From Glandiceps talaboti (taxonomy: Eukaryota; Hemichordata; Enteropneusta; Spengelidae), in NCBI RefSeq assembly GCF_964340395.1, contig NC_135561.1:6505518-6569517 (forward strand): 64,000 nucleotides of DNA. Direction: 5' to 3'. Position numbers and translations under genes: made by a program. Below, in pieces: positions 23,426 through 44,227 of the stretch (position 1 is the stretch's first letter; the number at the start of each line of letters is the position of its first letter). The notes under the pieces were generated by a model. It saw nothing but the letters and a program-made list of their open reading frames with translations. It made no database searches and was not told the DNA's origin.

Positions 23426-26053
23426 CTAGTCGTTCGATGTATCCTGTTTCCCGCCCGCAGGTCGTTGTTGTCCTGAAAATATAAGTGAAGGTTATGAAAA
23501 TGATAGATTTTATTACTTTTAATTCAAATGATTATACAGTGTCTAACATGAAGCTATACAAATAGAATGAATGAATGAATGAATGAATGAATGAATGAAT
23601 GAATGAATGAATGAATGAATGAATGAATGAATGAATGAATGAATGAATGAATATTATACCATGCACTAGCCAGGTTCAACAAAGAATATGGAATATATAC
23701 TCTGGTCGTTCTACGTCAAGACATCGCGAGTCTATGTATTCGAAATATGAGTCAAAACGTTTAAATTGCTATTCATTTTTTTCAAATATTACTGCCGATG
23801 GTATAATTATATTTGTTTCCAATAAAATGTCCTTAAACCTTGTTGCAGTACGTTTAAATGGTTTATTTCATTTAGGCAGAATGAAGCAATAAATTGCGAT
23901 CTGTCTACCTTAGGCAGTTTCTTATTGGTTTCAGCGTGGTTGCATTAATATTAAATAGACCGGCTGATTTGAAATGGGCTTATATCTTTCATACCTTGTG
24001 TCTTTGTAGTCTCAATCCAGTCAATGATTGATGTAACCCTAGCAAACACGTTAGGATAGGTAAGAGAATCACAGCCTCCTCGAAGGAAACTAGTCAGACC
24101 TGCCAGGTACCACCGACCGTTCGCTCTTTGGCAGACAAGTGGTCCACCACTGTCACCCTGCAATGTGGCATAAGTGGCATGTTATTCTTGAAAGCATTCA
24201 CTTCAAGTTCAATCATGTCTATGGATTCAGTTTTGAAAGTAGCGTTCCCTATTGAAGTACCCTTAGAAGACAAGGTAGATAGTACAGACATACAGACAGA
24301 TTTGGAATAATTAATAATGATTATTTCGCAAGAATCTGTGGCTGCGCTCTCTCAATATCGTATAAATTCCAGTCAACCAGTACGCATACTCTATCTCAAT
24401 ATATCAGATTATGTTTAACTATTGCCCATAGCTTCCATTAAGTGTAATAATGTTAGTTCAATCTTTGTTATGCAACGAATTATGTTGGAAGTATAGTGTC
24501 GTGAACGTACATAGCAAGCCGACACGTGATTATCAGTCCAGCCAGCACATATTCCAGAATCAGGAATAACTACGTCATCATACACATCGCTGCATTCCTG
24601 TTGATTCCACAATGTCAGTTCTGCTTCTTGTAGATCATTCACTGAAGAACCTTAAAGAAAGATATAATAAAGATATGATGTTTAGATTGGCCGATATCGA
24701 GTAAATATATGAGAGAGAGAGAGAGAGAGAGAGAGAGAGAGAGAGAGAGAGAGAGAGAGAGAGAGAGAGAGAGAGAGAGAGAGAGAGAGATAAAAGCACC
24801 GTTCAGTGATTAAATTAACACCCACAAAGGAGCTGATTGTATGGAAGTGAACAACCAAGTAATATCCATGTGCTATTAATTAATAGATTCCGGTACCAAT
24901 ATTATAAGTAGCGCCCCAACCAGTTACAGTGCAGGTCTCGCCATCTTTGAAGAAGGTCGTGTCATCAGCTGGTGGAAGACATGGTGGTTTGATGAAATCA
25001 TTATATTCCAAAGGAGCATTAATCTTCAATAACGCTGCATCCCAGCCGGCTTCAACAACACCATACTGGAAAAGAGGATGAATGTATAACTCAACCACTT
25101 GTCGCCTCTGAAGGTGTTCGGAGCCAAGTGAATGGGACACAAAACCAGCTTTGATTTCAATGTCAGAGGCAAGTTCAAATTCACTACAGGTGAAGCAGAT
25201 GAAACAACTTTATTACATTGTCTCACACTCAGGGTATCAAATAACTCATAAAATAAAACAACACTAACAGTAACTTTGGTTACAGGTTGGCATTGACTCT
25301 TAGACAGACAGACAACTAGCTTACATCTTAAACGTGCTTGCATGAAATCGTGCTATAGTAAAAGGATATATAATCCTAACACTTAAACATGCATTCCTAT
25401 GTAGGTTCATCTTGGTATGATGATGTTTTTAAAACAAATTTCATTTTCATTGCTACCTGTTATTTAATTGGTAGAAAGAAATTAAAGTGACTATATGGAT
25501 GAGGATTGGGTATTTGTTTTGGATTTTTTAATTTTTTATTTTATAAAACAATTTTATCATGGCTTCCTACTTGAGAATTCATGTGAATCAACATATGCCA
25601 AGTCCTTTTTTGTAACTCAATACATTGCAAAAGATTAATACATGTGTAAAATCTTGGTTACTGTACGTACAATAACAAACTTTGTACACAAATTTTAGCT
25701 TTTTTGCAATGTATTGAGTTACCAACACAGACTTGGTCTATGTTGTTTCACATCGATTTCTCAAGTAGGAAGCCATGATAAAATTGTTTTATAAATTAAA
25801 AATCCAAAACAAATACCCAATCCTCATCCATATAGTCACTTTAAGCAAAAAGACTATATTGACTATTGATTATAGACTTACACGCAATGGGCTGCAGTCA
25901 ATATCCAATTATGATCGATTACAACACCTCCACAGAAATGATCGTCATTGTCCTGGAGTAGGGAAACCTGCCAGGGCCAAGCTCCCAATTCCGAATTCCA
26001 ACCATTGACTATACGATCCGATCCGTACATGCGTGTACCGCACATGCCAGAAC
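23426..26053 (-). CDS. Gene 2 serine protease domain (S1A)
   Basis: Five exons. The linker contains a single cysteine (GMCG) for the tether to the catalytic domain. Activation is at DR/IVNG. His57 is in LTAAHC, Asp102 in WDAALLKI, Ser195 in GDSGGP. Before GDSGG the sequence reads S-A-C-Y, so position 189 is Ser, as in chymotrypsin. Position 215 is Phe (TSFL) and 226 appears to be Asn (YPNVF). The first three protease exons are 172, 287 and 140 bp (gene 1: 166, 287, 137). The last 15 residues come from a small extra exon (23472-23426) and are basic and polar. Confidence 0.9.

Positions 26054-44227: not shown

Follow-up and report, generated by a model that had tools for sequence, protein, structure and literature searches.

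Type II transmembrane serine proteases (TTSPs) are described as Arg/Lys-specific (PMC4161349), and trypsin-like specificity with Asp189 appears among their traits in PMC4161349 and PMC7834812. According to the module lists given in the sources, vertebrate corin carries two Frizzled (Fz) domains, eight LDLa modules and SRCR (PMC10376093), enteropeptidase carries SEA, LDLR, CUB, MAM and SR modules (PMC6021170), and matriptase-2 (TMPRSS6) carries SEA, two CUB and three LDLR modules (PMC10376093). Here we describe a gene that shares modules with these proteases. It lies in the window, by which we mean the whole 64,000-nucleotide stretch analysed (C14:6505518-6569517 of a 590 Mb assembly). We consider it reasonably probable that the gene belongs to a family of its own and encodes a membrane-anchored, multi-module stem and an elastase-like zymogen protease, with a private MAM module and an internal duplication.

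Gene model and domain architecture

The gene occupies the minus strand, from an ATG at 44227 to a stop codon ending at 23426, and comprises 21 exons joined by 20 introns (all GT-AG) into a single open frame of 1,780 residues with no internal stops; splice sites were picked with a simple scoring matrix together with phase. A sequence-only reading that gave no strand had placed a 1,780-residue product at 23426..44227, and this model reproduces both the limits and the length exactly. A plus-strand gene at 23426-44227 was rejected, the plus-strand open reading frames there containing no such gene. Most introns (18 of the 20) are in phase 1, the others being one of phase 2 (after TAAHC) and one of phase 0 (before GDSGGP). 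Weak scores were obtained at some splice sites, among them the exon 3 acceptor (-2.8), the exon 13 acceptor (-1.6) and the exon 18 donor (-2.1), so that exact junctions at such sites are less certain than the domains. Without the splice between exons 20 and 21, the frame would continue to a stop just past 23954. The features are:

43909..44227, minus strand: exon 1, cytosolic tail and transmembrane (TM) anchor, residues about 1-106; homologues lie 5' of four further loci of the family
44057..44110, minus strand: conserved cytosolic motif, residues 40-57 (18 residues), pattern DPIYQY.T..G.[IV]KTR.F
42255..42890, minus strand: exon 2, Ser/Thr-rich stalk, by Ser/Thr/Pro content
41088..41231, minus strand: exon 3, LDLa 1 (Pfam); weak acceptor
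39756..39893, minus strand: exon 4, LDLa 2 (Pfam)
36445..38134 (38134-37994, 36792-36445), minus strand: exons 5-6, MAM 1 (Pfam)
34984..36119 (36119-35769, 35325-34984), minus strand: exons 7-8, CUB 1 and CUB 2 (Pfam)
35752..36789, minus strand: high-identity tract of the duplication, paired with 32139-33205; BLAST aligns it in two pieces (86% and 89%) that take in the intron
32861..33738 (33738-33589, 33208-32861), minus strand: exons 9-10, MAM 2 (Pfam); duplicate of exons 5-6
31003..32506 (32506-32156, 31347-31003), minus strand: exons 11-12, CUB 3 and CUB 4 (Pfam); duplicate of exons 7-8
29978..30307, minus strand: exon 13, Frizzled 1 (Pfam), 10 Cys counted by eye
29524..29640, minus strand: exon 14, EGF 1 (Pfam)
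28452..28559, minus strand: exon 15, EGF 2 (Pfam)
27122..27487, minus strand: exon 16, Frizzled 2 (Pfam), 10 Cys counted by eye
25882..26053, minus strand: exon 17, prodomain Cys (GMCG), activation site Arg/IVNG (26015-26010), His57
24897..25183, minus strand: exon 18, Asp102 region and Cys122; weak donor
24511..24650, minus strand: exon 19, ending ...VSACY; residue 189 is Ser at 24522-24520
23995..24157, minus strand: exon 20, GDSGGP (Ser195), Leu216 (24085-24083), Asn226 (24052-24050)
23426..23472, minus strand: exon 21, last 15 residues and stop codon

The predicted protein thus reads cytosolic tail, TM, Ser/Thr-rich stalk, LDLa x2, [MAM-CUB-CUB] x2, Fz, EGF x2, Fz, S1A protease. Pfam (run on the protein in two parts, with matches listed up to E = 1) returned MAM (1.2e-84, two stretches), CUB (1.2e-62, four), Trypsin (1.4e-53, one), Fz (3.7e-30, two), EGF (1.7e-11, two) and LDLa (9.7e-16, two), and so bore out the domain order proposed earlier. 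Neither SRCR nor SEA was among the matches to the 1,780-residue protein at E up to 1, in agreement with the earlier claim that SRCR is lacking, and 7 of the 11 minus-strand open reading frames of at least 30 residues in the interval between Fz2 and the protease gave no Pfam match.

Several traits by which TTSPs are recognized are present. One hydrophobic segment near the N terminus, peaking at residue 83 behind a tail of about 82 residues, points to a type II topology. Ser, Thr and Pro together make up 39% of residues 108-330 (exon 2 and the first 12 residues of exon 3). The C-terminal S1A protease has the His-Asp-Ser triad and is preceded by an activation site (DR/IVNG) and a prodomain Cys (GMCG), which may form a disulphide with Cys122 (KPPCLPP) that would tether the protease after cleavage. 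A self-complementary element of ~363 bases (84.5%), perhaps a mobile element, lies at 25482-25844 in the intron after exon 17.

Neighbouring genes and the mitochondrial contig

Two other genes were seen in the window. At about 298-17285 (plus strand, approximate limits), convergent with the window gene, is an LDLa/CUB protease gene, in which LDLa matched eight times and CUB three times, and whose pocket has Gly189 (LGICY) and, by alignment, Ser216. At about 53884-58296 (minus strand) is a lipid-droplet associated hydrolase gene (PF10230, 3.1e-22 for the open reading frame 54216-53884; the remainder by eye).

All three COX1 matches in the assembly fall on one contig (C40), 15,435 bases apart, and this contig appears to have been assembled as tandem copies of one unit. 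Its GC content is 53% and, with genes other than COX1 bearing names that we presume to be right, cob lies between atp6 and cox3 in a protein-gene order that by eye is deuterostome-like. Nine protein genes, trimmed at their ends by eye, contain no AAA codon against 38 AAG codons, and ATA in cox1 falls at what we take to be conserved Ile positions. ATA as Ile is given as common to echinoderms and hemichordates, and AAA as absent in the hemichordate Balanoglossus carnosus, in PMC2697986. The mitochondrial code of C40 thus indicates a hemichordate.

Protease pocket and specificity

Aligned with plasma kallikrein and with paralogues described below (left, B and C), the window protease has Ser, Leu and Asn at S1 positions 189, 216 and 226, whereas left, B, C and a corin-like gene have Asp, Gly and Gly. 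Asp189 is present in four of the seven proteases read and absent from the window gene, its plus-strand neighbour and a protease 3' of a further locus, E; because the latter two both have Gly189, the loss of Asp189 in the window gene is not unique. The protease 3' of E (C14:6420300-6422800), in which no Ser195 exon was seen, reads RNVGPCF around this position.

Over the whole domain, the best PDB match is plasma kallikrein. The stretch 214-220 has the same length as that of neutrophil elastase (SFLRGGC in the window, SFVRGGC in the elastase), and a 37-residue pocket query of our choosing had neutrophil elastase sequences as its second to fifth PDB matches (from 9.8e-6), after 1fon (7.6e-6), named procarboxypeptidase A-S6, which we take to be an elastase relative. 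A 67-residue query placed the elastase 1bru first (4.9e-15), with enteropeptidase level with it (6e-15). Asn226 is not typical of elastases, and the specificity call rests on three positions, of which Ser189 also fits chymotrypsin. By the rules set out in PMC10036332, a larger nonpolar residue at 216 or 226 gives elastase-like specificity, which on sequence is the case for Leu216. Together, these features suggest that the window protease is probably not trypsin-like and that its S1 pocket would favour a small aliphatic P1, in elastase fashion, rather than Arg/Lys. Because the Asp189 of trypsin-like TTSPs is replaced, we describe the product as TTSP-type, with a pocket that departs from the usual one.

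Of the other readings weighed in this study, a pocket that is chymotrypsin-like or of odd specificity survives best, although we hold it doubtful. Ser189 is the chymotrypsin-type residue in PMC10036332 and Asn226 is unusual, but the same source requires Gly216 for chymotrypsin-like specificity where the window protease has Leu216; this residue should block large P1 side chains, and the 37-residue segment resembles neutrophil elastase.

A family of related proteases on one chromosome

In all, 190 kb of C14 plus the window (254 kb, N stretches included) were scanned with HMMs built from the window's own domains. Three further genes with Fz-EGF-EGF-Fz-protease in matching order and strand were found: left (plus strand, ending at C14:6505432, directly left of the window), with CUBs before this core; B, with LDLa-CUB-CUB ahead of it; and C, with LDLa-CUB ahead of it and a stretch that also holds YWTD repeats (Pfam Ldl_recept_b). 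At C14:4851798-4867700, Ldl_recept_b exons flank the LDLa-CUB exons of C and precede its Fz, and are candidate parts of C. A fifth Fz-pair locus, E, seen in part, reads EGF-Fz-Fz on the minus strand. CUBs lie directly before Fz1 in B and left, as in the window gene. Exon phases are likewise shared. Left, B and C were examined over 23 exons, every one of which offers a candidate acceptor in phase 1, and in 21 of them that candidate also scores highest. Among donors, the top-scoring site falls in phase 1 for 20 of 20 stem exons and in phase 2 for the first protease exon of all three genes, matching the window gene.

The cytosolic/TM exon ties these loci together. Beyond itself, exon 1 matched genome-wide at 6449935-6450147 (minus), 4752162-4752440 (plus) and 4811681-4811899 (plus), all on C14, with a weaker match at C14:6467783 (plus). 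These copies lie 5' of, and on the same strand as, E (6449935), B (4752162), C (4811681) and left (6467783), and the motif DPIYQY.T..G.[IV]KTR.F is found in all five copies read, the window copy included. For B and C the link rests on position, because their exon-1 copies are 28 kb and 40 kb, respectively, from the next stem exon seen and the intervening stretches are partly covered.

Frizzled matches numbered 67 genome-wide, 20 of them on C14 (counted by eye), and comparison by eye of the two genome-wide lists showed no match to the window protease near an Fz match off C14. A tree built from 37 of these Fz matches has long branches; in it, the Fz1 domains of the window gene, B and C grouped together (support 99/94), as did their Fz2 domains (100/98); left Fz1, E Fz2 and the corin-like Fz took no resolved position, and left Fz2 and E Fz1 fell elsewhere without firm support. 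Protease identity to the window gene was 49% for B, 47% for C, 41% for the corin-like gene (D), 40% for the plus-strand neighbour and 39% for left. Proteases closer than B and C may exist, however, because the best non-self match by E-value, ahead of both, is C1:6931480-6932214 (1.4e-29, 31%), and an exon at C5:27425705-27425866 (within C5 matches spanning 27418566-27425866) is 65% identical to the window protease over 54 residues. The C1 match covers nearly the whole protease domain in one piece, with one stop. Dense arrays of Frizzled exons were also seen at C2:15385037-15556658 (25 of the 67 matches, counted by eye) and C14:16063262-16068609.

MAM was found in the window gene only across the 254 kb of C14 scanned. 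In a genome search that scored 150 of 528 candidates and gave 151 matches, the only two on C14 among the matches listed were both the window gene's. Within the scanned stretch and the matches listed, MAM therefore looks like a private addition of the window member. Among the same matches, a large cluster of MAM exons lies at C5:19.64-21.20 Mb.

On these comparisons, the window gene is part of a small one-chromosome family and not a one-off hybrid of corin and enteropeptidase. Orthology to corin, with the stem shuffled, is an unlikely account of the gene. The TM, two Fz, LDLa and S1A protease are as in corin, but the two LDLa (not eight) are both N-terminal to the Fz domains, SRCR was not found, and a separate corin-like gene, D, lies at about C14:17650952-17661104, with an Fz just 28% identical to window Fz2. 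The D locus, seen in part, has a TM-like open reading frame, Fz, two LDLa and a protease with Asp189; this layout fits insect corin (TM-Fz-2LDLA-SR-PD as given in PMC10036332; honey bee SP30 as given in PMC1761132), so that a corin-like gene exists apart from the window family. The Fz tree, drawn from 37 of the 67 matches, did not settle corin kinship either way. The sequence-only reading had seen a combination of corin-like and enteropeptidase-like modules, and both sets are indeed present; a blend of corin and enteropeptidase is nonetheless not the best description of the gene, given that its core and TM exon are common to the C14 paralogues, that the corin-like gene is separate, that MAM occurs only in the window member within our scans and that Asp189 is lacking.

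Membership of this family also bears on the integrity of the model. The Fz1 acceptor is weak and the model comes from genomic sequence, and the locus might be two adjacent genes misread as one, namely a TM-stalk-LDLa-MAM-CUB protein and an Fz-EGF-EGF-Fz protease. This seems very unlikely, as the frame is continuous without a stop, the order and phase from CUB to Fz are kept in B and left, and each of the five Fz-pair loci has, 5' of it and on its strand, an exon 1 of this TM type. Frame, phase and paralogue comparison thus argue for one gene and one transcript from the TM exon to the protease, with the pairing of exon 1 with Fz loci and the conserved CUB-Fz order as the strongest evidence. Catalytic death or decay of the gene, which the altered pocket might suggest, is highly improbable with an open frame and with the His/Asp/Ser triad, the IVNG start and the disulphide Cys retained.

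Duplication within the stem

Exons 5-8 and 9-12 are duplicates of each other, with nucleotide identities that vary along the unit (69% for exons 5/9, 88.5% for 6/10, 93.2% for 7/11 and 71% for 8/12). Gaps excluded, the intron that separates exons 6 and 7 matches its counterpart at 90% identity. For exons 7/11, dN and dS are both about 0.072, and for exons 6/10 they are 0.099 and 0.214, respectively. The identities of the flanking exon pairs imply that the [MAM-CUB-CUB] copies are old, and the middle tract is therefore better explained by later gene conversion; the pattern suggests an old tandem duplication followed by conversion that homogenized the middle of the copies. An assembly artefact, with two haplotypes placed in tandem, could account for a central tract that is 86-89% identical with its intron, but is the least probable reading of all given the age of the flanks.

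Proposed function and comparison with known systems

In the family-member reading, the short cytosolic tail with its conserved motif and the single TM helix would form the membrane anchor, and the Ser/Thr-rich stalk would raise a long stem, built of LDLa, MAM, CUB, Frizzled and EGF modules, whose probable role is to bind ligand or matrix; ligand capture by the Fz and CUB modules, in particular, is plausible. The S1A protease would be synthesized as a zymogen, activated by cleavage behind the Arg of R/IVNG and kept tethered by disulphide through the prodomain Cys. Self-activation is unlikely, because the activation site follows Arg and the enzyme's own pocket is probably elastase-like, and a trypsin-like partner, for instance a paralogue, would be needed. 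The Fz-EGF-EGF-Fz-protease core would be the family trait, to which the window member may have added MAM, a doubled [MAM-CUB-CUB] unit and an altered pocket. More tentatively, and as a possibility that we would not yet favour, the loci may represent a receptor-like protease family of hemichordates (perhaps of ambulacrarians), with a shared cytosolic motif, a fixed core and distal modules that differ between members (CUB, LDLa, MAM and perhaps a YWTD propeller), in which an elastase-like member with a convergent neutrophil-elastase-like pocket is switched on by trypsin-like siblings in a membrane cascade. A conserved cytosolic motif in a Frizzled-bearing protease family would raise the question of signalling via the tail, and the window gene illustrates how stem modules may be gained, doubled and homogenized inside a single gene.

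The open-access literature searched (titles, abstract starts and passages) yielded no description of this architecture, which is weak evidence for absence. Its difference from corin and enteropeptidase, claimed in the sequence-only reading, holds against the modules listed in PMC10376093 and PMC6021170. Like corin (TMPRSS10), the protein has a predicted type II anchor, a stem with Fz and LDLa, and a C-terminal S1A protease activated after Arg; unlike corin, it has an EGF pair between the Fz domains as well as MAM and CUB, with no SRCR found and no Asp189. With enteropeptidase (TMPRSS15) it shares the anchor, LDLa, MAM, CUB and the S1A protease, but it adds Fz and EGF, has Ser189 for Asp189 and gave no match to SEA or SRCR at E up to 1. 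The CUB pair, LDLa and anchor recall matriptase-2, which is among the PDB matches of the window protease, whereas Fz, MAM and EGF are not among the modules listed for matriptase-2 in PMC10376093. The S1-lining segment, finally, is like that of neutrophil elastase. Neutrophil elastase is a soluble, single-domain enzyme, and the likeness looks convergent because the protease domain overall is closer to plasma kallikrein and TTSPs. If the elastase-like reading is true, a membrane-anchored TTSP with Frizzled modules of the Wnt-receptor type would widen what TTSPs cut.
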